Source of the DNA: Thiohalocapsa sp.
Lineage (GTDB): Bacteria; Pseudomonadota; Gammaproteobacteria; Chromatiales; Chromatiaceae
Length of the DNA: 41,431 nt
NCBI GenBank assembly: GCA_021736785.1
Contig: JAIPFF010000050.1
Location: forward strand, 1-41,431
Reading direction: 5' to 3'
Shown here: in pieces, positions 24,080-39,687 of the stretch
Position numbering within the stretch: the first letter of the stretch is position 1
Layout of the letters: every line of letters begins with the position of its first letter
Translations under genes and position numbers: made by a program
Notes under the pieces: model-generated
What the model was told of the DNA's origin: nothing
The model's input: the letters and a program-made list of their open reading frames with translations, nothing else
Databases searched by the model: none

Positions 24080-24128
24080 TGGTGCGCCCTGTTGGACTCG
24101 AACCAACGACCACCTGATTAAAAGTCAG
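24080..24128 (-). other. 3' half of tRNA-Lys(UUU): attachment site remnant
   Basis: The minus strand reads an anticodon arm CTGACTTTTAATCAG (anticodon TTT), a variable loop, a T-arm (GTTGGTTCGAGTCCAAC), the 3' acceptor strand and an encoded CCA. The matching 5' half (acceptor strand, D-arm) is absent: the bases before the anticodon stem have no D-arm and do not pair with the acceptor strand. This is what a tyrosine integrase leaves at the distal end of an element inserted in a tRNA 3' end, and an integrase gene starts 184 bp away. The intact tRNA copy should lie beyond the element, to the right. Confidence 0.82.
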
Positions 24129-24208
24129 ATTTACGCCTCCTGGCCAGAATCCCAGGAAGCCCCACAACGTTTTATTAAAGGTATTATTTCCCTTCATAAA
24201 CAATAATA

Positions 24209-24214
24209 TATAAT
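24209..24214 (+). promoter_or_regulatory. Possible -10 box in AT-rich patch
   Basis: A perfect TATAAT lies inside a markedly AT-rich stretch (about 24168-24218) 100 bp before the integrase start. No good -35 box is visible. The composition contrast marks imported DNA. Confidence 0.35.
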
Positions 24215-24311
24215 CTTAGACCTTCCAAAGCCGAACGATGTCGTCCGGATGCAGCCACCGTCAAACGGCTACCAAACGGCTACCAGATAGCTGCGGGGAG
24301 AGAGGTGAGTC

Positions 24312-24943
24312 ATGGTTACCGTAAAGGCGCTGCGGGCACTCGCCCCAAAGGTTTGGCTATCCGATGGAGGCGCTCGGGGCGCAGGGACCCTCGTGTTTCG
24401 TCGCACTGGTGGTGTCACCCGAGCGTACTTCCGGTACACCCAGCCTGACGGCTCCCGGCATGCCCTTCCGCTTGGACATTACGATGAGGAGGGTACCAAT
24501 GGTCTGACGCTGGCCCAGGCTCGCGCCAAGGCCGGAGAACTATCGAGGCTATACGTGTCGGGCGAAAAGGATTTGCGAGCCTACCTCAATGCGATGGAAA
24601 CGGAACGGCAGGCGGTCCTCGTAGCCGAAGCGGCAGCGCAAGCTGAAGCCGCGGCCCGAAAAGAGGCCGGGCAGCGATACACGCTGAGCGCACTCTGTGA
24701 CGTCTACGTTGCCGCTCTCGACACTCAAGGGAAGACAAAGAGTGCGCGTGATGTCCGCTCCTCCTTCAATGTCCATATCATGTCGCGGCATGCGGTACTC
24801 GCGCACACTCCTGCGAAAGACATCACGCCGCAGCAGGTCGCTGCAATGGTCCGTACTGTCCGCGAAGCCGGCAAGGAGAGGACCGCCGGCGTCCTCCGCA
24901 GCTACCTCCGCGCCGCCTATGCCCTGGCGATACGCGCCCCCTT
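24312..24943 (+). pseudogene. Truncated tyrosine-recombinase integrase
   Basis: The first 210 or so residues are a phage/island integrase: an N-terminal arm-binding region (GGVTRAYFRYTQPDGSRHALPLGHYD, shown in pieces along residues 33-58), a helical linker (about 86-120) and the start of the core-binding SAM-like domain (LSALCDVYVAAL to VLRSYLRAAYALAIRA). The frame stays open to 25364, but from about residue 209 the sequence is fragments of transposase genes read on the wrong strand. The whole catalytic domain (R-H-R-Y residues) is missing, so it cannot recombine. ATG 24312 has GGAGAGAGGTGA before it. It lies next to the tRNA-Lys remnant it presumably once used. Confidence 0.82.
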
Positions 24944-25323: not shown

Positions 25324-26457
25324 CTATTCCCCAAACGCAATGCGCCCCAGGTTCGCGATCTTGACGGCGAGTTGCGCCTGTCGATTGACGCCCGTCTTGC
25401 GAAAGACGGCCTTGAGGACATTGCGGGCCGTCCCGACCGTGATGCCCAACTGATCGGCCACCTGTTCGATGGGTACGCCCGCCGCAACGAGCGAAGCGAG
25501 CCGGGCCTCGCTGATGGTCAGATGCATGCAGTCCCGGAGCACCGCCGGATCGACTTGCATCTCGCGCTCCATGGGCGTTGCCAGCAGCAACATGGCCGCG
25601 GTGGAGCGGTGCTCGGACCCGCCGTGCGAGGCATAGCCAACCGGCATCGCCCAGAGGACGAGCCGCGTCCCGTCGCGACCAATGAGCACGCAGGACCTCG
25701 GCGCCCCGCACTCCGCGTTCAGTTGCCGCGCGGCGGCGAGGTAGTCATCGAGCTTCCGTCGTTCGTCGGCAACCTTCGCGATCAGGCGTCCATCGCGCCC
25801 CTCGAAGTAGGCATCCAACTGCAACCGACCCGCGCGATTGCTGAACAGGAGACGGCCGTCCGCGCCCAGCGCATGCATGCCTGCATCCACGGCATCAAGT
25901 GCCTGCTTGAGCGCCGCCTCCATGCTCACCAGGCTCGATAGCCGCAACGAGATCCGCAGGGCCTGTTCGACGTGCCGGCCGAGCAGGCCCAAGGTCTGCA
26001 TTTCTTCGGGTGTGAACGGGCCCTTGGCCTTGGCCCTCGGCACGGACAGGACGACCAGATCATGGCGATCCGGAAGGATGAGGCATGACATCAGCCAGCC
26101 AAAGCCGACACGCCGGAAAAAGTCCGTGTAGATCGGGTGTGTCCGTATCTCCGAGTCACTCGCGACGGTGTGATCACTCATGACCTCGAAGCCTCCGAGG
26201 TTCAATGAAATCGCGCGTTGGGCGTGCAAATCCCGTTCCCACCAGCGCTCCTCCAGATAGACGCCCACCGCCCCCGCCAGACTCTCCGGATAGATGAAGT
26301 GGGGCGTCTCCCGCGACTCATAGAAAAGAATGACGCTGCCTTCCGCACCGAAATAGTCTCCGATGCACTCCAGCGCGTGCGGCCATCGCTCGGGGTTCGG
26401 ACCCGCCTCGTAGATCGCCTCGAGGGTTTGGCTAAAGGCCTGCATTTGCACGGTCAT
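25324..26457 (-). CDS. LuxR-type regulator with PAS-like domain
   Basis: 377-aa transcription regulator. The C-terminal 65 residues are a LuxR/FixJ helix-turn-helix: LTISEARLASLVAAG, VADQLGITVGTARNVLKAVF and KTGVNRQAQL. The N-terminal half is a sensory region without a phosphoacceptor domain. Around residues 210-290 a PAS-like segment is visible (DAVDAGMHALGADGRLLFSN). No classical autoinducer-binding domain is recognisable, so the ligand is unknown. The start is uncertain: ATG 26457 was chosen because the region before it, up to 26640, does not look coding. The gene is divergent from the amidase-efflux cluster, and a palindrome lies between them, so it probably controls that cluster (inference). 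Confidence 0.82.
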   Translation of the reverse strand: MTVQMQAFSQTLEAIYEAGPNPERWPHALECIGDYFGAEGSVILFYESRETPHFIYPESLAGAVGVYLEERWWERDLHAQRAISLNLGGFEVMSDHTVASDSEIRTHPIYTDFFRRVGFGWLMSCLILPDRHDLVVLSVPRAKAKGPFTPEEMQTLGLLGRHVEQALRISLRLSSLVSMEAALKQALDAVDAGMHALGADGRLLFSNRAGRLQLDAYFEGRDGRLIAKVADERRKLDDYLAAARQLNAECGAPRSCVLIGRDGTRLVLWAMPVGYASHGGSEHRSTAAMLLLATPMEREMQVDPAVLRDCMHLTISEARLASLVAAGVPIEQVADQLGITVGTARNVLKAVFRKTGVNRQAQLAVKIANLGRIAFGE

Positions 26458-26530
26458 TGCGTCAAGTGGGCAAATCGATTGGTGAGGGCCGGAGGCAAGG
26501 ACCATCCAATGGGCGAGACGGCGCTTCTCT

Positions 26531-26544
26531 GTCCCATATGGGAC
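26531..26544. promoter_or_regulatory. 14-bp perfect palindrome, possible operator
   Basis: GTCCCATATGGGAC lies about 75 bp upstream of the regulator start and about 220 bp upstream of the amidase start. Dyad symmetry in this divergent region makes it a candidate binding site of the LuxR-type regulator. This rests on symmetry and position only. Confidence 0.4.
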
Positions 26545-26763
26545 ATTGACGCGAGCCCGCCCGAATCGCAGGATGTCGCGCAAGCGCACCGGCGCACCTC
26601 GCACGGCGACAACCCTTTCATTCAGATAGATTTCAGGCAAACCTTAGCGGTCGGACCGCCGCCGGCCGATGCAGCGGCGGCACAGACAGCGGTCATCACG
26701 GCCTTGACCATTGCCAACGGCTTCGCCCACCTGGCCTACTCTCACGCATTTCCAAGAGTCGTT

Positions 26764-27927
26764 ATGAAGAAGCCGATGGACGCCAAACGCACCATCCTAT
26801 CGACGTTCCTCGCGGCGAGCTTGGTGATCCCGGCCGTCGGCCAGGCCTGCACCTCGCTCGTGTATCGCGATGCCAATGGCGCGGCCTACGCGGGCAGGAC
26901 CATGGAGTTGCCCGCAGAACTGGCCTACCAAGTTGCATTCTACCCCAAGGGATCGAGCTTCTCCTCCAGAGCGGACCAACATGAGGCGCTCGACTACGCG
27001 GCGAAGCACGCCTTGGTGGCGATCACGGTGCCCGACCCCGTCACCAAGGATCACAAAGTGGTCGAGGGACTGAACGACCAGGGACTGAGCTTCAGTCTGC
27101 TGGCCTTCGCGAGCACACAAGGCCCCAAGGACATGTCGGAGAAGACGCTGAAGGTCTTGTCCGCCATCGACCTGGGCAGCTGGGCGTTGTCGCAGTTCGC
27201 AACCGTCGACGAGGTCAAGGCCGCGCTCGAAGAGCAGCCGATGCTGGTCACTGCGCTCCTCCCGCTGGACCTGCTGAAGTCGCCGTTTCACTACACCCTG
27301 CACGACGCCAAGGGCGATTCCATCGTCATCGAGTTCGCCGTTGGCAAGCAGCGGGTCTACGACAACCCGCTCGGTGTCATGACCAACGGACCCGAATTCA
27401 CCTGGCACCTCACCAACCTCAACAACTACACCTTCCTGAGCAACATCGATCGATCGGAATTGAAGCTCGGCGGCCTGCACCTCAAACAGCCCGACTCCGG
27501 CATCGCAACGGCAGGACTGCCGGCGTCGAATACCTCGGTCGGTCGATTCGTGCGCGCGGTCTATTACTCGCAGTTCGCCGAGAAGGCCAAGACCCCCGAC
27601 GCAGCGCTCACGACCCTGGCGCACGTCATGAACAACTTCGACCGGCCGCGCGGCATCACTATGGACAGTCGCGCGAAAGATGAGATTCAGGACAAGCTGG
27701 ACCCGGGCGTCACCGGTCACCCCATGTACACCTCTGAGTACACCACCTGGACCGCCCTGTCCGACCTCGAGCGGCTGCGGTTGAGCGTTCGGCTTTACGA
27801 CAGTTTGAACTACGTGACCTTCGACTTGAACGCGTTGAAAGACCAATCGAGCCAGATGGCGGTCCCGCTGAGCCGGTTCGCCGAAGAGACCGCGGACGGC
27901 ACCCGGGCACTGTCGGCTATCGACTGA
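26764..27927 (+). CDS. Choloylglycine hydrolase family amidase, secreted
   Basis: 387-aa linear-amide C-N hydrolase of the Ntn superfamily (bile salt hydrolase/penicillin V acylase group). A signal peptide ends at GQA|CTS; cleavage exposes Cys29, the N-terminal nucleophile, so export and activation are one step. Further family motifs: AGRTMEL (conserved Arg; Glu where BSH/PVA have Asp), GLNDQGLSFSLLAF, VMTNGPEFTWHLTNL and, near the end, Arg in DRPRGI. The family hydrolyses conjugated bile salts, penicillin V or, in some Gram-negatives, N-acyl-homoserine lactones. Substrate here is unknown. The gene starts a five-gene run with the AaeX-HlyD-FUSC-OMF genes (22 bp to the next). Confidence 0.9.
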   Translation: MKKPMDAKRTILSTFLAASLVIPAVGQACTSLVYRDANGAAYAGRTMELPAELAYQVAFYPKGSSFSSRADQHEALDYAAKHALVAITVPDPVTKDHKVVEGLNDQGLSFSLLAFASTQGPKDMSEKTLKVLSAIDLGSWALSQFATVDEVKAALEEQPMLVTALLPLDLLKSPFHYTLHDAKGDSIVIEFAVGKQRVYDNPLGVMTNGPEFTWHLTNLNNYTFLSNIDRSELKLGGLHLKQPDSGIATAGLPASNTSVGRFVRAVYYSQFAEKAKTPDAALTTLAHVMNNFDRPRGITMDSRAKDEIQDKLDPGVTGHPMYTSEYTTWTALSDLERLRLSVRLYDSLNYVTFDLNALKDQSSQMAVPLSRFAEETADGTRALSAID

Positions 27928-27949
27928 ACCGGGCAGCCCGCGCGAACCG

Positions 27950-28153
27950 ATGAGCCCGGCACTGCCCTTCTATGGCGCCTACTTCCCATCGTGGCTCATC
28001 TGCGCCGTGGTCGGCATTCTGGGTACGGTGCTGGTGAGGACCTTGTTGATCCGCCTGGGCGTCGACGCCGGCATCCCGCTGCGGACCCTCGTCTACCTCG
28101 CGCTCGCCAGCCTGATCGCCTCGACACTCGCCCTGACCGTTTTCGGACCCTAG
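27950..28153 (+). CDS. DUF1656 (AaeX-like) small membrane protein
   Basis: 67-aa inner-membrane protein with two hydrophobic segments (about 8-30 and 43-64). The start PFYGAYFPSWLICAVVGILG and the position right before HlyD and FUSC genes are typical of DUF1656, the AaeX type. It is a standard but ill-understood accessory of aromatic-acid efflux pumps. It starts 22 bp after the amidase and ends 3 bp before the HlyD gene, so translation is probably coupled. Confidence 0.85.
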   Translation: MSPALPFYGAYFPSWLICAVVGILGTVLVRTLLIRLGVDAGIPLRTLVYLALASLIASTLALTVFGP

Positions 28154-28156
28154 CGC

Positions 28157-29224
28157 ATGGCCCGTTCCGCCTATGCGCGCTCCTACACCGTCGTCGGGAG
28201 CGCCCTCGCGGTGGCCATTCTGGCCGGTGCCGCGGTGTCCGGCTGGCTCTATGCCCAGCGTGCCGCGAACAACCCCCTGTCAGAGGACGCCGTGCTGACG
28301 GCGAATGTCGTCAACGTCGCCGCCACCGTCACCGGACGTGTCGCGACCATCGCCGTGGCCGACAACCAGCGTGTCGCCGCGGGCGACCTGCTCTTCGCGC
28401 TCGATCCCGAGCCCTACGCCCTCGCCGTCGAGCAGGTCGAGGCCGACCTGCGGCTCGCCGAGGCACTAGGCGACGCGCAGCGGCGGACCATCGCGGCGGA
28501 GCAGTCCAACGCCGCCGTCGCCACCGAGCAGATCCGTCGGGCGCGCACCAATCTCGCACTCGCCGAGGCGACGCTCGCCCGGCTCCTGCCCCTGACACCC
28601 AAAGGCTATGTCACGGCCCAGCAGGTCGATGACGCGCGCACGGCCCGCGACGACGCGCGCACGAGCCTGGATCAGGCCCTGCGCCAGGCGGAGGCCGCGA
28701 ATGCGCTGATCACCACCCTCGACGAATCGGAGGCGCTGGTCGCCGCCCGCCAGGCCGCACTGGCTATTGCCGAACGCGAACTCGCGGCGACCCGGGTGCT
28801 CGCGCCCCATGACGGGCTCGTGGTCGGCCTCACCGTGTCGACGGGCGAGATCGTCGCACCGGGCCAGTCCCTGTTCACGCTGATCGACACCCGCAACTGG
28901 TATGCCTCGGCCACCTTCCCCGAGACGGAATTGAGCCATATCGCGATCGGTGACTGCGCGCGGGTCTACGTGCTGGCGGACCGTTCACGCCCGGTCGCCG
29001 GCCGGGTCGACAGCATCGGCTGGGGCGTGCTGTCGGAGGATTTGGTCAATCTACCCCGCAACGTCCCCTACGTGCCGAAGTCGCTCAACTGGGTGCGCAT
29101 CGTCCAGCGCTTCCCGGTGCGGATCAGGCTCGATGACCCACCCGCATCGCTGATGCGATTGGGCGCTTCGGCGGTGGCCCTGGTACGGCATGGCGAGGAC
29201 TGTGGCAGCAACGGGGCCGAGTGA
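28157..29224 (+). CDS. HlyD/AaeA-type periplasmic adaptor
   Basis: 355-aa membrane fusion protein. One N-terminal membrane anchor (about 12-33) is followed by a barrel-sandwich hybrid domain (VVNVAATVTGRVATIAVADN and, later, VLAPHDGLVVGLTVSTGEIV), an alpha-helical hairpin between them (about 95-205, rich in Ala/Glu/Arg) and a beta-barrel domain (WYASATFPETELSHIAIGD). It would join the FUSC pump in the inner membrane to the outer-membrane channel encoded two genes on. Its frame overlaps the FUSC start by 35 bp. Confidence 0.9.
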   Translation: MARSAYARSYTVVGSALAVAILAGAAVSGWLYAQRAANNPLSEDAVLTANVVNVAATVTGRVATIAVADNQRVAAGDLLFALDPEPYALAVEQVEADLRLAEALGDAQRRTIAAEQSNAAVATEQIRRARTNLALAEATLARLLPLTPKGYVTAQQVDDARTARDDARTSLDQALRQAEAANALITTLDESEALVAARQAALAIAERELAATRVLAPHDGLVVGLTVSTGEIVAPGQSLFTLIDTRNWYASATFPETELSHIAIGDCARVYVLADRSRPVAGRVDSIGWGVLSEDLVNLPRNVPYVPKSLNWVRIVQRFPVRIRLDDPPASLMRLGASAVALVRHGEDCGSNGAE

Positions 29225-31157
29225 AGCGCGCGCGGTGTCGCCATCGCCATGGCACCAGGCGCTGGAGGACCTGCGCCCGGTCCCCGGCCGGGCCGCGCTG
29301 ACCTGGCGGATTGCGCTGCTCTGTGCGCTGGTGACCGGTGCCGGCATGATGTTCCACATCCCGGAGGCCGCAATCAGCTGCTACCTGGTAATCTTCCTGA
29401 TGAAGCCCGACGCCGTGGTGAACATCGGCACCGGCATCGGCTTCCTGATCCTGCTGCCCGGGCTCATCGCGCTCCTGGTCTGGGTCATCAATCTGTCCAG
29501 TGGCTCGACGGCGCACATCATGGCGGCGATCGTCATCAGCTCCATCCTGTTCCTATACCTCGGCGCGGCGACGCAACTGGGGGAGCAGGGCAGCGTGGCG
29601 GCGCTGATCATCGCCTTCCTGCTCACGCTGATCGTGAAGGCCCCCTTCGGCGAGGCCGCGACCTTCGCCCTGCGCGAGGCCTGGGCCATGGCCGCGATGC
29701 CGATGATCCTGATGATCGGGTTCAACCTTCTGCTGGGCTTTTCGCCCGTGGCCCTGCTGCGCGACAAGCTGCGGGCACGGCTTGCCGCCGCCGCCGAGGC
29801 GCTGGAGTCGGGCGATGCAACCGCCCTGCGCGAGTGTCTGCGCGAGGGCAACGCGACCTTCGAGCCGCAGGCCCTGGCAGCCAGACTGTTGCGGCTGGTG
29901 CCGCGCGCCCAGGCACGGCAGATAGCGACCGATATCCGGGCCGGCTTCGCGCTGATGCTCGCGGTGTCGGCGCTGCCCGCCGAGTTGCACCCGGACCGCC
30001 GTGGCGCGCTCGCGGCCGCCATCCGCGCCGCCCACGGGTCACTCGGCAAGGGCCTGGCCCCGCCGCCCCCGAACACGGGCACCCGAGACCTCCCCGCGGA
30101 CGCGGACCCTGCCGAGCGCGCGGCCTGGGCGGCACTCGAGCGGCTAGCCGGAGCCCCGGAACCCGAGGTAGTCGCCGAGCCCAAGACGCCGTTCATCGCG
30201 CCGGATGCGCTGAGCAACCCCGCCTACACGCGCTTTGCCCTCAAAACCACGGCGGCGGCGGTGATCTGCTTTCTCATCTACACCGCGATCGACTGGCAGG
30301 GCATCCATACGGCGATGATTACCTGCTATGTCGCCGCGCTCGCGACCACCGGCGAGACCGTGCACAAGCTCGCCCTGCGCATCGTCGGATGCCTGATCGG
30401 CGCCGCGCTCGGCGTCGCCGCCATCTTCTTCGTGATCCCCCATATCGACGACATCGGCTCGCTGATGGTCCTGGTCTTCTTCGGCTGCCTCCTCGGCGCC
30501 TGGGTCTCGACCGGCCCCGAGCGCATCTCCTATGCCGGGATGCAGATCGCCCTAGCATTCCTGCTGACCGTATTGCAGGGCTTCGGCCCCAGCATCAGCC
30601 TGGACACGGCGCAGGGGCGGATCTTCGGCATCCTGCTCGGCAACCTCGTCGTTTACCTGATCTTCACGCGCGTCTGGCCAGCCCCGGTAGAGGGCGAGGT
30701 GCGCGCGGCGTTCGCCCGCGCCCTCGCGGGCCTGGCTCGGATGGCAAGGCTCGCGCCCGCGAGTCGAGCCAATGCCGTCGGAGGCGCCGCCGCGGTGGCC
30801 TCCCTGGCCGGTCGGTGCGAGGAGGCGCTGCGCCTGCTGCCATTCGAGCCCGGCGGGTTGCGGCCGACACCGGAGCGCGAGGCGGCACTGCATGGCGCGG
30901 TCGACGAGGTCGAGGCGCTCAATCGCGCCATCTGGTTGAGCCGTGACGCGGACCTCGGACCGACGGCCGACGCACTCGACCGGCTCGCGCAACGCTTTCG
31001 GGGACCGGTTCAGGGGCCAATTCAAGGACCGACTGGGGCGCCGGCGCTGCTGCCCGACCCCGCCGCATCCAAAGAGGGGACCAGGTCCGCTGGTCATGCC
31101 CTGATCACCGGTCCCTTCGGGCCCCCACTCGATCGACTCCAGGGGGCCGCGGGATGA
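29190..31157 (+). CDS. FUSC family inner-membrane exporter (AaeB-like)
   Basis: 655-aa pump of the fusaric-acid-resistance/aromatic-acid exporter family. Two blocks of membrane segments (about 35-190 and 345-490) are separated by a cytoplasmic helical region (about 195-330), the classic duplicated architecture. The second block contains the FUSC core (LKTTAAAVICFLIYTAIDWQ, HTAMITCYVAALATTGETVH). The last 165 residues are cytoplasmic and helical, with a repetitive RGPVQGPIQGPTG stretch near the end. The family exports hydroxylated aromatic carboxylic acids and similar amphipathic acids, using the proton gradient. ATG 29190 is preferred; a GTG at 29235 is possible. Stop and next start overlap (ATGA). 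Confidence 0.9.
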   Translation: MARTVAATGPSEARAVSPSPWHQALEDLRPVPGRAALTWRIALLCALVTGAGMMFHIPEAAISCYLVIFLMKPDAVVNIGTGIGFLILLPGLIALLVWVINLSSGSTAHIMAAIVISSILFLYLGAATQLGEQGSVAALIIAFLLTLIVKAPFGEAATFALREAWAMAAMPMILMIGFNLLLGFSPVALLRDKLRARLAAAAEALESGDATALRECLREGNATFEPQALAARLLRLVPRAQARQIATDIRAGFALMLAVSALPAELHPDRRGALAAAIRAAHGSLGKGLAPPPPNTGTRDLPADADPAERAAWAALERLAGAPEPEVVAEPKTPFIAPDALSNPAYTRFALKTTAAAVICFLIYTAIDWQGIHTAMITCYVAALATTGETVHKLALRIVGCLIGAALGVAAIFFVIPHIDDIGSLMVLVFFGCLLGAWVSTGPERISYAGMQIALAFLLTVLQGFGPSISLDTAQGRIFGILLGNLVVYLIFTRVWPAPVEGEVRAAFARALAGLARMARLAPASRANAVGGAAAVASLAGRCEEALRLLPFEPGGLRPTPEREAALHGAVDEVEALNRAIWLSRDADLGPTADALDRLAQRFRGPVQGPIQGPTGAPALLPDPAASKEGTRSAGHALITGPFGPPLDRLQGAAG

Positions 31158-32698
31158 GGAATCACCACCCTGGGCGGCACGGCGCCCGTCGCTCGCTGGG
31201 CGCCTTCGTGCTGGGCCTGGCATTGGCGGGTTGCGCCTCCGACGCAACCAACATGGCGCCTGCATCGCCCGCCCAGCCGTGGACGCCTCGCGGCGACGAG
31301 GAGACCGGCACTTGGAGCCTCGCGCGCCCCGGGCCGCGAACCCCATCGGATGGCGTCGCCGACTTCGCCATCCCCATGGATTCCGAGCGCGCGCAGCTTG
31401 CGGTGAACCCAAGGGTCGACCCCGCGCGCAGCTATGCCCTGCCCGAGCTGATCGATCTGGCGCAGCGCACGAATCCCGCGACCCGCACCGCCTGGCAACA
31501 GGCACGGCAGGCGGCGCTCGCCGTCGGCATGGTGGAGGCGACCTACCTGCCCGTGATCACCGCGAGCGTGATCGGCGGCGCCCAGGAGCTGACCCTGCCC
31601 CTACCGGAGGTGCTCGGCGAGAACATCAGCGTGGAGAACCGGCAGCAGGGCTCGGCCCAGATTCTTGCGCTGCAATGGCTGCTGTTCGACTTCGGCCAGC
31701 GCGAGGCGCTCGCGACGGCCGCGAAACACGCCGCCGTCGCGGCCAACATCCTGTTCAACGGCACCCATCAGAGGCTGATCTTCGAGGTGTCGCAGGCCTA
31801 CTACGCCTATGGTGCCGCGATCCAGCGACGCGGTTTCGCCGAGGCAGCCCTCGGCAATGCCAAGTCGGTGCGGGCCGCCGTGGACGCGCGTGCGGCCCAG
31901 GGCCTCGCCACCAGCATGGAGGCGGCCCAGGCGCACCAGGCCGTGGCCCAGGCCGAGCTCCGTCGCGTCCGAACAGCGGGCGAGGAACGCGACGCCTACC
32001 AGAACCTCCTCGCCGCCGTGGGCGTGAACGTCCCCCTGAACATCGACATGGCGGGCGCGGCACGGCGCCCCCTGCCGGCACCGGCCGCCGCGCCCTTGGA
32101 GCAAACCATCCGACAAGCGCTGTCCCGACGCCCCGACGTCGCGGCGAGCTACGCGGCGCTGCAGGCGAGCAAGGCCGACATCCAAGCCGCCCGGGCGGAC
32201 TATTTGCCCAAGGTCTACGCCGGCGGCAATCTCAGTTCCGGCTCGGGCGACTTCGATATCTCCGGCCTGCCCGCCATCGGGCAACTAGGCTCCGGCGACG
32301 GCCTGCTGTTGGGAGTGACCGTGCCGCTCTATGACGGTGGCCTACGGGATGCTCGAATCAGTGATGCCAAGTCCCGGGCCGCGACGGCCGCAGATGAATT
32401 CCAAAGGATACAGACCGCCGCGGTGACCGAGATCGTCGGGGCGCGCAATGCGCTGCTGACCGCGCTCGAATCACATCGAGCGGCCACCGCGCTGGTCGAC
32501 GCCGCCTCCACCACCTTCGACGCCGCCCTTGCTGCCTACCGCAATGGCGTCGGCACCGTCGATGCGGCGACGGCGGCGGACACCGCGCTGCTCGACGCCC
32601 GCCAGGCACAGGCGGATGCGCACACAGCCGCGCTGGTCAGCGCGGTCGACCTCGCCTTCGCGGTCGGTGCGTTGACCTCGCACGAGGCCCTGCCCTAG
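31154..32698 (+). CDS. TolC/NodT-type outer-membrane factor, lipoprotein
   Basis: 514-aa outer-membrane efflux protein. A signal peptide ends in a lipobox, LAGC (Cys27), so the mature protein is lipidated as in NodT/OprM channels. Two outer-membrane-efflux repeats follow: the first around 95-290 (LPELIDLAQRTNPATRTAWQ), the second around 305-505 (IRQALSRRPDVAASYAALQA). It forms the trimeric exit duct for the pump encoded just upstream, with which it overlaps by four bases. It closes the amidase-efflux operon. Confidence 0.9.
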   Translation: MRNHHPGRHGARRSLGAFVLGLALAGCASDATNMAPASPAQPWTPRGDEETGTWSLARPGPRTPSDGVADFAIPMDSERAQLAVNPRVDPARSYALPELIDLAQRTNPATRTAWQQARQAALAVGMVEATYLPVITASVIGGAQELTLPLPEVLGENISVENRQQGSAQILALQWLLFDFGQREALATAAKHAAVAANILFNGTHQRLIFEVSQAYYAYGAAIQRRGFAEAALGNAKSVRAAVDARAAQGLATSMEAAQAHQAVAQAELRRVRTAGEERDAYQNLLAAVGVNVPLNIDMAGAARRPLPAPAAAPLEQTIRQALSRRPDVAASYAALQASKADIQAARADYLPKVYAGGNLSSGSGDFDISGLPAIGQLGSGDGLLLGVTVPLYDGGLRDARISDAKSRAATAADEFQRIQTAAVTEIVGARNALLTALESHRAATALVDAASTTFDAALAAYRNGVGTVDAATAADTALLDARQAQADAHTAALVSAVDLAFAVGALTSHEALP

Positions 32699-32857
32699 GC
32701 GATGGACCCGAGCGATCGACCCGTGCGAACCCCGCTGCAAACCAATGCCTGGCCCCATGGTTGATAGACTCGGGTTCCGTGCAGCCGCGGCGAGGAGGAG
32801 ATTCGACGGGGTACGCAAAACGACACGATAGAACACGCTTTCAACGAGTCTTCGCTG

Positions 32858-33074
32858 ATGAATACAGGCCGACGCTTCCCGAGTATCCTCGCAAGCAGAT
32901 TCACGGCAGCCGTCCTGGCGACATCGCTGGGACAGGCCATCGTCTATGTGATCGGCCGCACCGATGGCCGCGCGGTGCTCAACCCCTGGGTCGCCGGGGC
33001 TGATAATGGTTGGCCTCATGGTCCTGCTGCTCTTTGCCCTGATCGTCCTGATCAGGCGACGAGGCCGTTCATAA
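32858..33074 (+). pseudogene. Possible frameshifted small membrane protein
   Basis: A frame from ATG 32858 gives MNTGRRFPSILASRFTAAVL followed by a hydrophobic stretch and AVLNPWVAGAD. It then runs into non-protein-like sequence, while the +1 frame from 33006 gives a clean membrane helix, VGLMVLLLFALIVLIRRRG, ending at 33074. Joining them by one shift near 33000 gives a two-helix protein of about 72 aa. The ribosome site is weak, and a chance pair of hydrophobic frames cannot be excluded. The rest of the gap 32699-33084 shows nothing recognisable. Confidence 0.3.
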
Positions 33075-33084
33075 GGTGCCGCTG

Positions 33085-35007
33085 ATGGTCAACAAAGCAG
33101 CGGCCAGAAGGGAGCTCGAGCAATTGCTTCACCGGCGATGCTCGATCCGGGCGCCGTGGTGGGCCCTGTTGTGCGCGATACTCCTATGGACGCCGAGCTC
33201 CGTGCTCGGCGCCACCATCGGCCTTCTCAGCCCGCCCGACACTTCGTCGCCTCGCGCGACCTTCACGAGCTTTCGCGAGCTCACCAACGAGATCGCCAAG
33301 CGCTACGTCGACTATCGCGAGGCGCCCAGCGCCCACACCCAGCAGGCCTTCCAGCACGCCGTCGAGCAGGGCAAGCAGCTGATGGACCTCAGCGCCGTGC
33401 CGCCGGCCGCCCAGCGTGAGATCGGCGTCGCCAGCATCATCTGGCTCTGGGAGGTGATCGCGCGCGTCGATCTGCCGGACGCCGAGCAGATCCCCGATGC
33501 AGCGGCCTACGCCGGTGACGGCGACCTGGCCGATCACCCGGCGCGCTGGCGCCTGCCGGACACCAACATCGTCATCGCGCGCGCCGGCGAGGGGCCACGC
33601 GCGGGCGAGTTCCTGTTCAGTCCCGAAACGATCGCCTCGGCGCGTGCCTATGCCGAGATTGCGCGCGAACTGCCCTATCGGCGTTCGTCGCGCGTCGAGA
33701 ACGTCAAAGACCTGACCGCAACGGCGCTCGGTTTCTCCGGGTGGATGCTGCCTTCGCATTTGATCGAGCGCCTGCCGGGGTGGGCGCGGCAGCCCATCGC
33801 CGGCCAGGTCGCGTGGAAGTGGGGCCTGACGTTCGCGAGCCTGGGCCTGACCCTGGTCCTGCTGGTGCTGCTCCTGCGCTGGAGCCGTCGCCGACCCTGG
33901 GATGCCCGCCCCATTACCCTGATGCAACGCCTGAGCGCACCTCTGGCACTGCTGCTCTGGATGCCGCTGCTGCGCACCTTTCTCGACGACCAGGTCCGTA
34001 TCACCGGACTGGTCATCGCCTGGCCGGACTACCTCGCCGAGCTGACCCGCGTGGTCGCCCTGGTCTGGATGGTGTTGCTGATCTCACGCTGGATTCCCGA
34101 GGCGATGATCGCCTCGCCGAGGCGAACCGCCGACAGCCTGGACGCCAGCCTGCTGCGTTGGGTCGCGCGCGTCTTCTCCCTGATGGTCATCCTCGGCCTG
34201 CTGTTCGCCGCCGCCCAGGATCTCGGGATCCCGGTCTTCGGTTTGGTCGCGGGCGCCGGCGTCGGCGGCCTCGCCATCGCCCTCGCTGCGAGGCCGACGC
34301 TGGAGAACTTCATCGGCGCGCTGAACCTGTTCGCCGACCGGCCGATCCGGGTCGGTGACCTCTGCCGCTTCGACGAGCGCCACGGCCAGGGATGGAATCC
34401 GGTCGGCACCGTCGAGGCCATCGGCTTGCGCTCGACCCGCGTTCGTCAGTTCGACGGCTCCCTGATCACCATCCCGAACGCCGACCTGGCCGAGCGCAAC
34501 ATCGTCAATCTCAGCGTCTGCGAGACCTTTCTGTTACAGCAACGGATACCGCTGCGCTACGAGACCAGCGCCGATCAGCTGCGTTATGTGCTGGCCAACC
34601 TGCGCGAGCTGCTGCACGCCCATCCGATGACCATCCACACCGAGGACTATCCGATTCGCGCGCGCTTCCTCGGCTTTCGCGATCAGGCGCTGACCATCGA
34701 GCTGCGCACCTACATCCGCACCAAGTCCTACACGGAGTTCCTGGCCATCCAGGAGGACATCATGCTGCGCGTGATGCAGGCCATCCAGCGGGCCGGCACC
34801 GGCTTCGCGCTGCCGGCCCAGACCTTGTACATGATACGAGACCCAGGCCTCGATCCGGACCAGCGGGCGGCCGCCGAACGGCAGGTCCGCGAATGGGCCG
34901 CCGCCCATGAACTGCCGTTTCCGGACCTCGACGAGGCGCAGCGCAAGCGCATCACCGGCACCCTCGACTACCCGCCCGAGGGCTCGCCCGGGGCGGAGCG
35001 CGGTTAG
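33085..35007 (+). CDS. MscS family mechanosensitive channel
   Basis: 640-aa inner-membrane channel. A signal-like segment is followed by a periplasmic domain (about 35-240), about five membrane helices (about 245-415) and the MscS pore and beta domain. The pore helix is AGAGVGGLAIALAARPTLEN, followed by GALNLFADRPIRVGD and the cytoplasmic alpha/beta cage. The family opens on membrane tension and releases small solutes; some members are involved in metabolite export. ATG 33085 has AAGGTG eight bases upstream; a GTG at 33076 is an alternative. An amidohydrolase gene follows after 54 bp, so they are probably co-transcribed. Confidence 0.9.
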   Translation: MVNKAAARRELEQLLHRRCSIRAPWWALLCAILLWTPSSVLGATIGLLSPPDTSSPRATFTSFRELTNEIAKRYVDYREAPSAHTQQAFQHAVEQGKQLMDLSAVPPAAQREIGVASIIWLWEVIARVDLPDAEQIPDAAAYAGDGDLADHPARWRLPDTNIVIARAGEGPRAGEFLFSPETIASARAYAEIARELPYRRSSRVENVKDLTATALGFSGWMLPSHLIERLPGWARQPIAGQVAWKWGLTFASLGLTLVLLVLLLRWSRRRPWDARPITLMQRLSAPLALLLWMPLLRTFLDDQVRITGLVIAWPDYLAELTRVVALVWMVLLISRWIPEAMIASPRRTADSLDASLLRWVARVFSLMVILGLLFAAAQDLGIPVFGLVAGAGVGGLAIALAARPTLENFIGALNLFADRPIRVGDLCRFDERHGQGWNPVGTVEAIGLRSTRVRQFDGSLITIPNADLAERNIVNLSVCETFLLQQRIPLRYETSADQLRYVLANLRELLHAHPMTIHTEDYPIRARFLGFRDQALTIELRTYIRTKSYTEFLAIQEDIMLRVMQAIQRAGTGFALPAQTLYMIRDPGLDPDQRAAAERQVREWAAAHELPFPDLDEAQRKRITGTLDYPPEGSPGAERG

Positions 35008-35061
35008 CCGAATCGGAATCGGACCGACCAAACCCGTAAAGGATCAACCAAAGCTGTCACC

Positions 35062-36540
35062 ATGAAAGAACGTTTTTGCCTCGCATCCCGGAAGTCGTCG
35101 AAGACGGCGCTCGGCAAGGCCACCGGAGCTGGCCCTGGAATCGAGATGGGCAGGCCCGGAGCGGCAAGCCGCGTCGGCCCAAGGCTGGCCCAAACACGCA
35201 CCGCCGCACTGTTCATGCTCATGTGCCTATCCACGTTCACGGCGGGCGCCGACGCGCCGACCGCCCCCACACCCGCGGTCTTGTTCGAGGACGTGGCCGT
35301 GTTCGACGGCCGCTCCGATGCCCTGACCGAGCCCGTGCAGGTGCTGGTGGTCGGCAACCGCATCGAGCGGATCTCATCCGACCCCATCGAACCGCCGGAC
35401 GGGCTCGACCTGACCCGCATCGACGGCGGCGGCCGGACCCTGATGCCGGGGCTGATCGACGCCCATACGCACGTCATGTACGCCACCCTATCGCGTCAGA
35501 CCCTGCTCACCAGCGACATCGGCTTCCTGAACGTCGCCGCCACCAAGGCCGCGCGGGACATGCTGCTGCGCGGGTTCACCAGCATCCGCGACCTCGGTGG
35601 ACCCGTGTTCGGGCTCAAGCGCGGCATCGACCGGGGGCTAGTGCCGGGGCCGCGGATCTGGCCGGCGGGGGCCTTCATCTCCCAGTCCGGGGGGCATGGA
35701 GACTTTCGTCTGCCCTATGAGCTACCGGCCGCGCCCGATGCCTTCTCCTACAGCGAGCGCATCGGTGCCGCGCTGATCGCCGACGGCCCCGATGAGGTGC
35801 AGAAGCGCACCCGGGAGCAGCTCGCGCTCGGGGCCTCGCAGATCAAGCTCATGGCCGGCGGCGGCGTGGCGTCCATCTACGACCCCCTGGATGTGACCCA
35901 GTACACCGTGCCGGAGCTGCGCGCCGCCGTGGGGGCCGCCGAGAACTGGGGCACCTATGTCACGGTACACGCCTACACACCCCGCGCGGTGCGCCAGGCC
36001 ATCGAGGCCGGCGTCCAATGCATCGAGCATGGCCAATTGCTGAACGAGGAGACGGTCCGCCTGATCGCGGAGCACGATCTGTGGTGGAGCCTGCAGCCGT
36101 TCATCGACGACCAGCCCTCGCCCTACGCCGAGGGCTCGGCGAATCGGCGCAAGCAGCTCGCCATGTACGCGGGCACCGATCGCGCCTACGGCCTCGCCAG
36201 GCAGTTCGACATCAAGACCGCCTGGGGCACCGACATCCTGTTCAACGCCGCCAACGCGACCCGGCAGGGCGCGAAGCTCGCGGTCATGGAGCGCTGGTAT
36301 ACGCCCGCCGAGGTGCTGCGCATGGCCACCTCCGGCAACGCGGAGTTGCTCGCCCTCTCCGGCCCCCGCAGCCCCTACGAGGGCAAGCTCGGCGTCGTCG
36401 AGGAGGGGGCGCTTGCGGACCTGCTGCTGGTCGATGGCAACCCGCTCAAGGACCTGTCGTTGGTCGCCGACCCGGCGACACACTTCCTGATGATCATGAA
36501 AGACGGCGAGGTCTACAAGAACCTGCTGGCGGGGGACTGA
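35062..36540 (+). CDS. Metal-dependent amidohydrolase, exported
   Basis: 492-aa amidohydrolase with a complete set of metal ligands: HxH in DAHTH (His135, His137), the carboxylated lysine in QIKLMAGGG (Lys262), His303 (TVHAY), His323 (IEHGQ) and Asp391 (GTDI), so a binuclear zinc-type centre is likely. It resembles the imidazolonepropionase-like/Xaa-Pro dipeptidase branch, whose members cleave N-acyl or prolyl amino acids. A hydrophobic segment (about 47-65) preceded by basic residues acts as signal peptide, so it should work in the periplasm. The signal is unusually far from ATG 35062; ATG 35146 would give a normal one. It lies between two MscS-type genes. Confidence 0.88.
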   Translation: MKERFCLASRKSSKTALGKATGAGPGIEMGRPGAASRVGPRLAQTRTAALFMLMCLSTFTAGADAPTAPTPAVLFEDVAVFDGRSDALTEPVQVLVVGNRIERISSDPIEPPDGLDLTRIDGGGRTLMPGLIDAHTHVMYATLSRQTLLTSDIGFLNVAATKAARDMLLRGFTSIRDLGGPVFGLKRGIDRGLVPGPRIWPAGAFISQSGGHGDFRLPYELPAAPDAFSYSERIGAALIADGPDEVQKRTREQLALGASQIKLMAGGGVASIYDPLDVTQYTVPELRAAVGAAENWGTYVTVHAYTPRAVRQAIEAGVQCIEHGQLLNEETVRLIAEHDLWWSLQPFIDDQPSPYAEGSANRRKQLAMYAGTDRAYGLARQFDIKTAWGTDILFNAANATRQGAKLAVMERWYTPAEVLRMATSGNAELLALSGPRSPYEGKLGVVEEGALADLLLVDGNPLKDLSLVADPATHFLMIMKDGEVYKNLLAGD

Positions 36541-36846
36541 CCCGCACCCCCCCGATTCAGGCCAAGGCCGGGCTTCGATACGCGCTGTGATCGGCGTCCC
36601 GGTCTATTTCCTGGTCGCTACGACGCTCTACCTCTGAACCCAACCCCTGAACCCTACCTCTGAAACCAGCGGCTTCGGTCACCGGTTTAGATGTCCTGAG
36701 ACCTTTCCTGTTCGTTGTCGCAACCGGTGTCCGTGGATTCTCAATGACGAACACGATGACGACAACGACAACGAGCGCAACTGGCCTTGGGACGCCTGCG
36801 CCGAAGCACTCGTCGAGCCAAAACTGCAATGAAAGGATCGACCTTT
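36541..36846. other. Gap between amidohydrolase and channel genes
   Basis: About 305 bp with no supported gene. Two short direct repeats occur: CTCTGAACCC-type units at about 36630-36665 and a (GAC/AAC) run at about 36750-36775. It may hold a separate promoter for the channel gene. Confidence 0.35.
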
Positions 36847-39660
36847 ATGCCATTTACTGTCATTCCCGTTCGCCTCTCGTCGTTGCTTCTGTTCCTGTTT
36901 CTGTCTTTCTCCCTTTCCCTGTCGGCTTCCGCGCAATCGAACACCGACACGGCCGCGTCCGACGCCGACCCCGTCGAAGGCGAATCGAGCACCGAAGAAC
37001 CGCAGGCGACACGGAAGGCGACGCGGCCGGAGCAGGACGCGGACCGCTTGACGTTCGACCCGGCGGACATCGGGCTGCCCGCCCTGCCCCGCCCGATGGT
37101 GTCGGCCGAGGACTTCAGCCAGACGGTGACATTGATCGACAGCCGACTGGCCGAGCTGGAGGCCGAGGCGGAGCGTACCGACGCCGCGGACGACGGCCCA
37201 GGGGAGGGACTGGCCGACGGCCTGGATGAAGACCCGGATGCGGAACGGGCCGACGCGGATGCGGGAAAGGCCCCGGCGGACGAGGCCACGCGCACCGGGC
37301 GCATCGAACTCCTGCGCTCGCTGCGGGCCACCGTGCAGCGTCGCGCACTGCTGAAGCAGCGCCTGGGCAGGCTTGAGGACGACCTGGCCGAACACCGCGA
37401 ACAGCTCACCGCCATCGAGCAGAACGACGACGACGCGGACTCCGCGAAGGGCCTCGGCATCGAGCCACCCTATACCGTGTCCCAGCTCGACCGGCAACAG
37501 GCCGAACTGGGCCTGACGGAGGCCGCCGAGGCGGTGGCCGAGACCCGGCTGGAGACGGCCACACGGCGTCTGAGCGCGAGCGAGAAGGCACTTGCGGCGG
37601 CCGTCCGCGCAAGGCGCGCGGCCCGTGATCGCCTCACCGCCGCCAGCGATGAGGGGCGCCCCGAGGCCGAGCGCGAGGCGCTGGCACAGTCCCTGGAACT
37701 CGCCAGACTGCAAGAGTTGCTCGCACGTCAACAAGCGGCCGCCGCCGAGGACGCGCTGACCCTGGCGCGCCAGGAGGACCGGCTCTCAGAGGCCCGGCAG
37801 GAGCTGTTGCAAGCCCGTGTGGAGTTCCTGGAATCGCGTGCCCAGCTGTCGCCGGAGATGCTCGAGCAGCGCCTGGAGGAGCTCGACGACACCGAGCGGC
37901 GCCTGCGCGATCAGATCGACACCCTGCTGGGCCAGGCCGACGAGGCCGAATCCGCCCTCTTTCAGGCCCAGCGCCGTCTGGCCGACGCGAGGGAGAACGC
38001 CGGTCCCGAGACCGGCCCCGAAGCCGGCCCAGACAGCGGCCCCGAAGCCGGCCCAGAGACCGATAGGGCCGCGCTGACGGAATGGGTGGCCGCTCGCCAG
38101 AGCGAACTCGACGCCATCAACTCCGCGGTGGACTCACTGACCGTGGCCATCGCGGACATCGACCAGATGCGACGGCGCTGGCAGCAGCGCTTCGAACTGA
38201 TGCAGTCGCCCGACACCGAGCATGCGGCCGAGCAGCTACGCGAGATCATCAACGCGGCGACGACGGCGCGTGCCGGCAAGGACGAGATCGAGGGCCGCCT
38301 CAACGCACTGCGCACCATGCAGCTGACCCAGGCGCGAAGACTGCGCGAACCCGACCTCGGCCAAGACCTGCGCGAGGCCCTGGAGACACGCACCGCGGCC
38401 CAGGAGCTCGCGGAACGCCATGGGCGTGAGCTGCTGGAGACCCGGGACGCGCTGATCGCCCTGCTGGTCGGCATGCGGCATCAACTCCAGCAGCACGTGG
38501 ACAACGAGCCGCTCAGCCTGCAGCTGCTCGAGGCCCAGGAGGCCCTGGTCGATTGGTGGGACGCCGAGCTGATCGTCATCAACGACCAGAGCATCACCGC
38601 CGGCGAGCTGGTGACCGCGCTGGCCATGTTCGCCCTCGTGCTCATCGTGGTGCCGTTGATCCGGCTCGGCGCGGGCCGCGCCTTGCGGCGACGCAGGGTG
38701 AAGAACCGCAACACGCAGGCGGGCGATCTGCGCCTGGTGCTGTCGGCCATCGCCGGCAACACCAGCCAGCTCTTCGTGCTGATCGCGGCCTTCTACGTGG
38801 CCATGGTCTTCTCCGGGCTGGCGAGCCCGACAGTGCGCAGTTGGCTCTGGACGGCGCTGGTCATCGCCTTCTATGCCCAACTCGGGCTCTGGGCCAACGC
38901 CGCCATGGTCGACTACTTCAACCGTCGGCGCACCCGCCAGGAGATGCGCGACCCCTCGACGGTGACCGGCTATGGCGTGCTGATGTTCTTCATCCGCATC
39001 GGCATCTGGATCAGCGTGCTGGTCTCTTTGCTGACCTACTTCGAGTACCCGGTCGCCGGGCTCATCGGCGCCCTCGGCGTCGGCAGCTTGGCCGTGGCCT
39101 TTGCGGTGCAGAACATCCTCGGCGACGTCTTCAGCTCCATGGCCATCATCCTCGACAAGCCGTTCCGGGTCGGGGATTTCATCAAGGCCGGCGACACCCT
39201 CGGCACGATCGAGCTGATCGGGGTCAAGACCACCCGCATCCGCAGCCTGTCCGGTGAGCAGGTGGTGATCTCCAACAGCGACCTGCTCAACAGTCGTGTC
39301 CACAACTTCAAGCACTTCTCGGAGCGCCGAATCACCTTCGGCATCCGCGTCGTCTACTGGACGTCGCCGGAACAGATCGAGCACATCCCGCAGATGATCC
39401 GCGAGGCCATCGAGCGCCAACCGCAAACCCGCTTCGACCGTGCCCACTTCGCGCGGCTCGGCGAGTCCTGCCTGGAGTTCGATGTCGTCTACTTCGTGCT
39501 GACCCCGGACTATGGCGTCTACATGGATATCCAGCAGGCCGTGAACCGCGAGCTGCATCGCCGTTTCCAGGAGTCCGGCATCGCGTTCGCCTACCCGACC
39601 CAGGCGGTCATCGTCCACGGCGGCCCGCATCCAATCCAAGCCTGGGCAGATGCCCGCTAG
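36847..39660 (+). CDS. Large coiled-coil MscS-type channel
   Basis: 937-aa channel of the MscK/YbiO-like type. A signal peptide (cleaved near SASA|QS) leads into a long periplasmic part (about 25-590) made mostly of Glu/Arg/Ala-rich coiled coil, interrupted by a GPE(T/A)GPEAG repeat at about residues 385-405. Membrane helices start near 600; the pore segment is VAGLIGALGVGSLAVAFAVQ and the beta domain follows (ILDKPFRVGDFIKAGDTLG). The C-terminal cage domain ends at 937. It releases solutes on hypo-osmotic shock. ATG 36847 is preferred because AAAGGA lies nine bases upstream; 36829 is also possible. It converges on the DUF481 gene with 27 bp between stops. Confidence 0.88.
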   Translation: MPFTVIPVRLSSLLLFLFLSFSLSLSASAQSNTDTAASDADPVEGESSTEEPQATRKATRPEQDADRLTFDPADIGLPALPRPMVSAEDFSQTVTLIDSRLAELEAEAERTDAADDGPGEGLADGLDEDPDAERADADAGKAPADEATRTGRIELLRSLRATVQRRALLKQRLGRLEDDLAEHREQLTAIEQNDDDADSAKGLGIEPPYTVSQLDRQQAELGLTEAAEAVAETRLETATRRLSASEKALAAAVRARRAARDRLTAASDEGRPEAEREALAQSLELARLQELLARQQAAAAEDALTLARQEDRLSEARQELLQARVEFLESRAQLSPEMLEQRLEELDDTERRLRDQIDTLLGQADEAESALFQAQRRLADARENAGPETGPEAGPDSGPEAGPETDRAALTEWVAARQSELDAINSAVDSLTVAIADIDQMRRRWQQRFELMQSPDTEHAAEQLREIINAATTARAGKDEIEGRLNALRTMQLTQARRLREPDLGQDLREALETRTAAQELAERHGRELLETRDALIALLVGMRHQLQQHVDNEPLSLQLLEAQEALVDWWDAELIVINDQSITAGELVTALAMFALVLIVVPLIRLGAGRALRRRRVKNRNTQAGDLRLVLSAIAGNTSQLFVLIAAFYVAMVFSGLASPTVRSWLWTALVIAFYAQLGLWANAAMVDYFNRRRTRQEMRDPSTVTGYGVLMFFIRIGIWISVLVSLLTYFEYPVAGLIGALGVGSLAVAFAVQNILGDVFSSMAIILDKPFRVGDFIKAGDTLGTIELIGVKTTRIRSLSGEQVVISNSDLLNSRVHNFKHFSERRITFGIRVVYWTSPEQIEHIPQMIREAIERQPQTRFDRAHFARLGESCLEFDVVYFVLTPDYGVYMDIQQAVNRELHRRFQESGIAFAYPTQAVIVHGGPHPIQAWADAR

Positions 39661-39687
39661 GGCGATCCGCCACCGCGGTCGCGGGGG

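Follow-up and report, generated by a model that had tools for sequence, protein, structure and literature searches.

The window, a stretch of 41,431 nucleotides from Thiohalocapsa sp., probably a purple sulfur bacterium, carries one predicted operon in which open reading frame calls and profile searches identify a choloylglycine-hydrolase-family (CBAH) amidase together with all the parts of a tripartite FUSC pump; a divergently oriented regulator lies next to it (Table 1). The amidase-plus-pump operon proposed by the first-pass annotation was confirmed gene for gene, with junctions from amidase to YtcA, adaptor, FUSC subunit, and outer-membrane factor of 22 bp, 3 bp, a 35-bp overlap, and a 4-bp overlap. 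A consensus scan of positions 26300-36700 returned no promoter-like sites, and a scan of the same interval returned two terminator-like sites against 3.8 expected, both of them outside the interval that runs from the amidase to the final pump gene. The GC content is 62% in the CBAH gene and 70-71% in the three large pump genes. An MscS-type channel on the same strand beyond the pump is possibly associated with the operon.

Table 1. Genes and features of the amidase-pump region, in window coordinates
Feature	Position	Strand	Basis or remark
Divergent transcriptional regulator	25324..26457	-	377 aa from ATG 26457; possible LuxR/NarL-like C-terminal HTH
Putative operator region	26530..26552	+	Palindrome plus stretch common to T. 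imhoffii
CBAH amidase (PF02275, Ntn), signal peptide, Cys29 nucleophile	26764..27927	+	Pfam profile; 387 aa
YtcA-family small inner-membrane protein	27950..28153	+	PF17090
MdtN-type periplasmic adaptor (HlyD-type)	28157..29224	+	NF007785
MdtO-type FUSC inner-membrane pump subunit	29190..31157	+	Pfam and NCBIfam profiles
Outer-membrane factor (TolC/MdtP place)	31154..32698	+	OEP, 148 bits
MscS-type channel	33076..35007	+	Profile match; 377 bp downstream of operon
Amidohydrolase PF01979, prolidase/ochratoxinase group, putative signal peptide (by eye)	35062..36540	+	Profile match

Identity of the amidase and the pump

Membership of the amidase in the CBAH family is clear, with 178.6 bits against PF02275 and a Pfam gathering score of 20.4. 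Its Cys29 immediately follows a signal-peptide-like start that ends in VGQA, as judged by eye and from hydrophobicity. Across 83 aligned CBAH rows, C1, R17, N180, and R233 are conserved in 81, 81, 83, and 83, the remainder being gaps, and the window enzyme has the Cys, Arg, Asn, and Arg at all four catalytic positions. We take the N-terminal Cys and the Arg17, Asn175-like, and Arg228-like residues to have catalytic roles in this family. The window amidase would be expected to hydrolyze amides of a fatty or steroid-like kind.

The bile-acid and penicillin-like substrates put forward by the first-pass annotation found no support in the sequence, which allowed neither a bile-salt nor a penicillin V assignment. 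Scores fall below the NCBIfam bile salt hydrolase and penicillin V acylase equivalog cutoffs (NF038245, 158 against 350; NF058572, 138.5 against 600). Position 20 is Glu in 82 of the 83 rows, with one gap, where known bile salt hydrolases and penicillin V acylases presumably have Asp. At the 82-like position, located by eye from the 3pva alignment, the window has Ala (overall Ser in 45/83 and Ala in 30/83); we take Asn there to mark bile salt hydrolases and Tyr to mark BspPVA. The enzyme's scores for 2oqc and 3pva exceed its score for 4wl2.

Export was a further part of the earlier proposal. The signal peptide of the window enzyme stands, but cleavage outside the cytoplasm does not extend to the group: by hydrophobicity, 31 of 39 pump-linked amidases begin Met-Cys without a signal peptide, which rules out secretion as a general property. 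Three of the eight signal-peptide calls among the pump-linked rows are doubtful because these Brucella-clade N termini lack a basic start. With the window hydrolase exported and most linked relatives not, any one simple compartment story misfits some of them.

The first-pass annotation was right that the tripartite FUSC pump is complete, but its AaeX-type identity gives way to a YtcA-MdtNOP type. The small protein scores 45.8 bits against YtcA (PF17090; cutoff 28.8) and 22.8 against DUF1656 (AaeX; cutoff 26.5), and the adaptor scores 455 bits against the MdtN equivalog NF007785 (cutoff 376) and 129 against AaeA (cutoff 400), so that an AaeXAB identity was rejected. The FUSC and outer-membrane proteins fall below the MdtO and MdtP equivalogs (212 against 821 and 36.8 against 597). 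Together, these scores indicate the same type of pump as in E. coli and not the orthologous pump.

Linkage of amidase and pump across genomes

The pairing is seen again in many other proteobacteria, often near glutamate decarboxylase (GadB), as the neighborhood check suggested by the first-pass annotation required. Among 248 Hyphomicrobiales genomes, a CBAH gene lies near 12 of 13 close MdtO pumps at distances of 118-3970 bp, a figure that becomes 11/12 without G144, the genome already known to carry both through which this order was chosen. The two genes are adjacent in all 12 genomes where they co-occur (hypergeometric P 4e-14 for co-occurrence). In 146 Chromatiaceae genomes, a CBAH gene is found within 7 kb of six of eight close MdtO pumps counting the window and of five of seven without it. 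The close pumps lacking such a neighbor are those of G731 and G768 (Chromatiaceae) and G638 (Hyphomicrobiales), and more distant MdtO loci have a CBAH gene at 0/11. Within the window's own genome, the sole FUSC_2 match and the sole CBAH match adjoin each other. A chance neighborhood without functional meaning would fit the several CBAH relatives that have no pump, but it is contradicted by the 12 adjacent pairs and their repetition in a second family; on these counts it was rejected, and we give it almost no credence.

Gene order varies among the linked loci, with short gaps between genes on the same strand, and in two loci CBAH and YtcA overlap by 4 bp. The linked MdtO proteins form a single clade of 40 rows, 39 with CBAH, a figure that is not a rate, as most rows were found through CBAH. 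Seen from the amidase, MdtO lies within 10 kb of 35 of the 66 CBAH genes that have 6 kb of flank on each side, and GadB lies equally close to 21 of them. The other 31 have no MdtO within 10 kb, a sign that the hydrolase can also act in the absence of this pump.

Several recurrent neighbors in many relatives, namely GadB, YrhK, and a second amidohydrolase, had been missed by the first-pass annotation. Of the 83 CBAH genes, 25 have GadB within 10 kb, four a GadC-like gene, four ClC, three a Na/H exchanger, and 13 a PF01979 amidohydrolase; all three GadB proteins tested score above the TIGR01788 cutoff. YrhK also recurs near the module in relatives. In the window, no GadB gene occurs close to the operon, and a search of the window's genome gave no GadB match, an empty result that says little since the search had no positive control. 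The second amidohydrolase of the window is related to prolidases and ochratoxinase, enzymes that cleave amide bonds beside a carboxylate. An 80% relative of the MscS-type channel lies near the amidase in locus L051.

The window's pump groups with Thiocapsa pumps (support 100), and its CBAH protein falls in a different clade, with Vibrio injensis (support 100); joining it with the Thiocapsa CBAH proteins is disfavored (AU p 8e-6). Together with the lower GC content of the CBAH gene, the trees indicate that the amidase was exchanged with the operon kept, whether in the lineage of the window or among its relatives in Thiocapsa. Replacement of the amidase in a retained operon argues for functional coupling.

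The regulator and a shared DNA element

The regulator reading frame (25324-26640, minus strand) opens at TTG, and the start is more likely ATG 26457, since a 70% homologue begins at the residue matching that ATG. From there, 306 bp separate the regulator from the amidase. The C-terminal match to GerE HTH is weak (17.5 bits, cutoff 23.5), as are those to NarL/DosR HTH chains (E 0.06-0.5). The N-terminal part gave a subthreshold GAF match and is possibly GAF-like; no PAS match was listed in the profile search, and the PAS half of the LuxR/PAS label in the first-pass annotation was dropped.

The 70% homologue is the regulator's single close one among the 146 Chromatiaceae genomes, and it is divergent from gadB-gadC. 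A perfect 16-bp palindrome occupies 26530-26545 of the window, and the 15-bp stretch 26538-26552 is identical to part of the regulator-gadB intergenic region of Thiocapsa imhoffii, upstream of gadB-gadC; the longest shared word in 300 Markov shuffles was 11. From this shared element, the regulator likely belongs to the amidase-pump operon, in keeping with the earlier idea that the unit has its own sensor. The region 26530-26552 is a putative operator, through which the operon may be induced.

Related systems and candidate functions

In E. coli, ytcA-mdtNOP encodes YtcA, an HlyD-type adaptor, a FUSC subunit, and an outer-membrane factor. The window pump shares this four-part layout, down to an adaptor above the MdtN cutoff; unlike the E. 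coli unit, the window includes a hydrolase, and its other two large pump proteins lie below the MdtO and MdtP equivalogs. In Lactobacillus johnsonii 100-100, a Gram-positive host, the operon with the bile salt hydrolase has transporter genes for uptake-type carriers, and we know of no tripartite efflux pump or GadB in it. To our knowledge, the E. coli gadE-mdtEF operon contains no amidase. As excerpted, the literature lists MdtNOP with acriflavine and puromycin (review PMC8277102) and places the L. johnsonii hydrolase in an operon (PMC8066178), as for the CBAH-family enzyme here. The gadE-mdtEF operon joins an acid-resistance regulator, tied to glutamate decarboxylase control, to an efflux pump (PMC3708157, in part), which is an RND pump unlike the FUSC pump of the window. 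In Stenotrophomonas maltophilia, fuaR-fuaABC is a tripartite pump, inducible, whose substrate fusaric acid is a lipophilic carboxylic acid; the excerpt of PMC3517613 mentions no hydrolase, unlike the window operon. The Gram-negative enzymes PaPVA and Brucella CGH share PF02275 and the N-terminal Cys with the window amidase, but the portions of the literature compared leave their gene surroundings unmentioned. No description of an amidase combined with an MdtNOP-type pump was recognized in the open-licence literature; the components are known, and their combination was not found in print.

Recurrence of the pairing across proteobacteria, often beside an acid-stress enzyme, points to a conserved and apparently undescribed detoxification module. 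The reading we prefer, at a little short of even confidence, is one module acting against an N-acyl amide and its weak acid. The hydrolase would act on a lipophilic carboxylic acid conjugated to an amino acid or an amine and split the amide bond between the two; the freed acid would permeate membranes and acidify the cytoplasm, and the dedicated YtcA-MdtNOP-type pump would drive it out. The regulator would sense the compound or acid stress and switch the operon via the palindrome at 26530. In relatives, glutamate decarboxylase would remove the protons brought in by the acids, and a second, exported amidohydrolase might broaden the range of conjugates.

Hydrolase, pump, and decarboxylase might instead act separately against the same acidic, surfactant-rich stress, as an acid and surfactant tolerance island whose pump exports intact toxins instead of what the hydrolase releases. 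The acid-linked genes around CBAH, the pump-free CBAH genes (31/66), and the coupling of acid control with a pump in gadE-mdtEF (PMC3708157, in part) make this a real but doubtful possibility; the repeated, very tight adjacency and the in-place exchange of the hydrolase suggest a more direct tie, and the control-free GadB search of the window's genome was empty. That same search and the signal peptide of the window enzyme weigh against a hydrolase acting mainly as an N-acyltransferase, masking toxic acids with GABA or amino-acid amines for export as conjugates. This is unlikely, even though 22 of the 25 GadB-linked CBAH proteins lack a signal peptide and would thus share the cytoplasm with GABA, and published excerpts describe bile salt hydrolase as an amine N-acyltransferase (PMC10881385) and B. 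fragilis as forming GABA-deoxycholate conjugates and raising GABA output when given deoxycholate (PMC10810215). We consider quite improbable a role in signal quenching or envelope lipid turnover, in which the amidase would cut N-acylhomoserine lactones (AHLs) or N-acyl amino lipids of the cell itself and the pump would move the products. Gram-negative penicillin V acylases degrade AHLs according to a title cited in PMC5474475 and PMC8066178, and a Brucella CGH deletion changes envelope proteins (PMC3234258, in part), but inspection of the compared gene clusters, as opposed to a family search, brought out no synthase for AHLs or acyl amino acids, and the GadB linkage is left unexplained. More speculative, and about as improbable, is an undescribed conjugation-and-export pathway in environmental proteobacteria, in which cytoplasmic GadB would make GABA, the linked CBAH enzyme would couple lipophilic acids to this GABA or to a different amine, and a dedicated CBAH-associated MdtNOP subfamily would export the conjugates; the window's exported hydrolase would then be a derived form that runs the reaction backwards in the extracellular space.

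If a shared role is true, CBAH enzymes and the little-known MdtNOP pumps would have a joint, testable part to play in acid stress, namely the cleavage or synthesis of N-acyl conjugates, and their linkage offers a handle for finding the pump's natural substrate. Choloylglycine hydrolases are known chiefly as gut bile-salt and penicillin enzymes. Going by their names, the bacteria with a linked CBAH gene and pump are mostly not gut dwellers.

The amidase and its pump

All the genes that the first-pass annotation had named in the operon region were found in the window (see table). The amidase, a choloylglycine-hydrolase-family protein (CBAH), starts at ATG 26764 with a signal-peptide-like N-terminus that ends in VGQA and is followed by Cys29; PF02275 covers residues 29–305 (178.6 bits against a cut-off of 20.4). 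Only 22 bp separate it from the YtcA gene and 3 bp separate YtcA from the HlyD-type adaptor, which the FUSC gene overlaps by 35 bp; the outer-membrane factor gene overlaps the FUSC gene by 4 bp. The pump had been described as AaeX-type, an identity that was dropped: the small protein falls below the DUF1656 cut-off and matches YtcA (PF17090), while the adaptor scores 129 with the AaeA profile, which requires 400, and 455 bits with the NCBIfam MdtN profile (cut-off 376). The best NCBIfam relative of the FUSC subunit is MdtO. These three matches make this a YtcA–MdtNOP-type pump (MdtN, adaptor; MdtO, FUSC subunit; MdtP, outer-membrane factor), of the same type as E. coli MdtNOP but distinct from it, with a FUSC subunit far short of the MdtO cut-off (212 bits versus 821).

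Features of the window (positions in nucleotides)
Feature	Position	Strand	Remarks
Penicillin amidase family protein (PF01804)	1562–4153	+	460 bits; second, unrelated amidase, ~22 kb from the operon
Tandem repeat	20591–21010		five 84-bp copies, 91% matching; open frames on both strands
tRNA-Lys, then integrase N-terminal remnant	24080–24940		arm-binding and central domains only, both below cut-off
Regulator and amidase–pump operon	25324–32698
15-bp word shared with T. imhoffii	26538–26552
Amidase (CBAH)	26764–27927	+	heads the pump operon
Amidohydrolase	35062–36540		kin to prolidases and ochratoxinase
Second large MscS-type channel (957 aa); DUF481 protein	36787–40839		after the amidohydrolase; DUF481 protein on the opposite strand

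The window's genome holds a single CBAH match and a single FUSC_2 match, and the two are operon neighbours. A contig scan with the window amidase returned 58 loci, and across 59 sources (window included) open-frame comparison found MdtO in 26, MdtN in 25, MdtP in 24, glutamate decarboxylase (GadB) in 13, and the amidohydrolase and YrhK families in nine each; the sole non-module family of like frequency (14 sources) was read as an ABC ATPase from its motif alone. Stronger evidence of linkage comes from a draw of 248 Hyphomicrobiales genomes, where CBAH (E <1e-100) occurred in 21, MdtO (E <1e-130) in 13 and both in 12, always 118–3970 bp apart (co-occurrence hypergeometric P 4e-14); the cut-offs were fixed post hoc at wide gaps (4e-107 to 9e-77 for CBAH, 2e-140 to 3e-98 for MdtO), the order was picked via G144, a genome already known to carry both genes (11 of the 12 remain without it), and some genomes may duplicate species in the amidase-scan loci (genome G472 and locus L059 are the same contig). 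Among 146 Chromatiaceae genomes, eight carry a close MdtO. The neighbourhood of amidase and FUSC genes in many genomes, which the first-pass annotation had put forward as a check, is thus borne out: 12 of 13 Hyphomicrobiales pumps are linked, as are six of the eight in Chromatiaceae (same contig, <7 kb, window's genome included). The other two Chromatiaceae (G731, G768) have no CBAH that close, and the pump frame in each matched in two pieces; distant MdtO proteins (37–46%) in five more have no CBAH nearby. Across 397 Pseudomonadota, CBAH at ≥49% identity was confined to G000 and G144, and MdtO adjoins it in both.

The pairing has exceptions. Among the 83 distinct CBAH genes are 66 flanked by 6 kb or more on each side, and within 10 kb of these lie MdtO (35), GadB (21), YrhK (17) and the amidohydrolase (11); no intact YtcA–MdtNOP-type pump lies near 31 of the 66, and the Hyphomicrobiales pump genome G638 gave no CBAH match genome-wide. 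A Pfam scan of 15 neighbours at 14 of 36 non-pump CBAH genes found a mixture: an RND pump (L021), MFS/EamA carriers (L047, L056), ABC permeases (L020, L027), and otherwise unrelated proteins or none with a Pfam match. A different FUSC protein adjoins CBAH in four Brucella/Ochrobactrum loci (L026, L029, L030, L039), whose amidases have an odd hydrophobic N-terminus that is poor in basic residues or devoid of them. Three loci (L105, L107, L117) hold a divergent second CBAH gene (225–236 bits) in the neighbourhood of the first.

Active site and exchange of the amidase

Cys1, Arg17, both Asn and Arg233 are conserved in every aligned row of the 83 CBAH proteins. Position 20 is Glu in 82 rows, with one gap; known enzymes carry Asp there, as the aligned structures 2oqc and 3pva show. 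At the site used to distinguish bile-salt hydrolases from penicillin V acylases, 75 of the 83 proteins have Ser or Ala. The amidase had been proposed to be secreted, which fits the window enzyme with its signal peptide but does not hold as a rule: by an ad hoc hydrophobicity rule rather than a trained predictor, a Met-Cys start without signal peptide is found in 46 of 83 proteins, which include 31 of the 39 with a linked pump and 22 of the 25 with a linked GadB.

In an MdtO tree of 51 proteins, one clade of 40 (support 95) has a CBAH neighbour in 39, which is no rate, most of the 39 having come in via CBAH; unbiased rates are those of the Hyphomicrobiales and Chromatiaceae draws. None of the other 11 has CBAH in the fetched stretch. 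Linkage changes on the CBAH tree number 10 each for pump and GadB (quick tree, no bootstrap). On the pump tree the window groups with Vibrio injensis (99) inside a Thiocapsa group (100), whereas its amidase belongs, together with the T. marina and V. injensis enzymes, to a separate 13-row clade (100). Joining the window and Thiocapsa amidases cost 196 log-likelihood units (AU p 8e-6), with the constrained group picked after the trees were viewed and two long rows excluded. Because the trees conflict and GC is 62% in the amidase versus 70–71% in the three large pump genes, we conclude that an amidase was swapped in the window's or the Thiocapsa lineage, with the order amidase–YtcA–MdtN–MdtO–MdtP retained. 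The operon may have entered on an element inserted at tRNA-Lys. Thiohalocapsa marina (L022/L133) has only an inner amidase piece, whose DNA is 91% identical to that of the window, and the YtcA–MdtNOP-type pump is absent from the fetched stretch.

Glutamate decarboxylase and the regulator

The GadB neighbours are glutamate decarboxylases, three of three checked passing TIGR01788, and two of two GadC proteins checked are the corresponding antiporter. Same-strand pairs with gaps <400 bp, counted from first possible starts, included CBAH–GadB (14), GadB–YrhK (12), MdtP–CBAH (9) and CBAH–YtcA (8). Most of 11 amidohydrolase relatives have, by eye, Tat-like or Sec-like N-termini. A Flavobacterium locus (L068:1523–11650) carries genes in a row for CBAH, GadB, porin, outer-membrane factor, HlyD adaptor, two ABC-2 permeases and one GadC-like permease; a hydrolase and GadB paired with an exporter may therefore occur outside proteobacteria too, with another pump class.

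The regulator is divergent from the amidase operon, as had been proposed. Its start at TTG 26640 is doubtful; a 70% homologue (376 aa) starts at the residue matching ATG 26457, which would leave a spacing of 306 bp. This close homologue occurs in one of 145 other Chromatiaceae, inferred to be T. imhoffii, where it is divergent from gadB–gadC; relatives at 25–26% occur in four further genomes. The two regulator intergenic regions share a 15-bp word (longest in 300 Markov shuffles, 11 bp). In the window, part of this word belongs to a perfect 16-bp palindrome, which had first been spotted by eye. A 12-bp core recurs once more, in L103, away from the module. The shared element would tie the window operon to the GAD system via the regulator, even though a Thiocapsa GadB query found no match in the window's genome, a search without positive control that carries little weight.

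A proposed function and its rival

Hydrolase and pump behave as a single unit on which selection acts. The simplest mechanism is that the hydrolase would cleave an N-acyl conjugate and the pump would remove the freed acid, with GAD as a proton sink in many relatives. The mechanism need not hang strictly on compartment, since such amides and acids would cross membranes. Bile salts are unlikely as the general substrate because the names of many CBAH carriers point to soil, marine or phototrophic bacteria.

A serious rival is that the hydrolase runs in reverse and makes amides. Bile salt hydrolases are known also to form amides (PMC10881385), and GABA amides of bile acids exist, with deoxycholate raising GABA in Bacteroides fragilis (PMC10810215). 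No description of the amidase–pump combination was recognised in the open-licence literature searched; the parts are known, and the combination and its spread appear new. ClC and MarC proteins flank the module in L035, L046 and L048, and CrcB-like fluoride channel pairs, judged by sequence look only, in L046 and L048, as if it sat in a region for weak-acid or ion stress.
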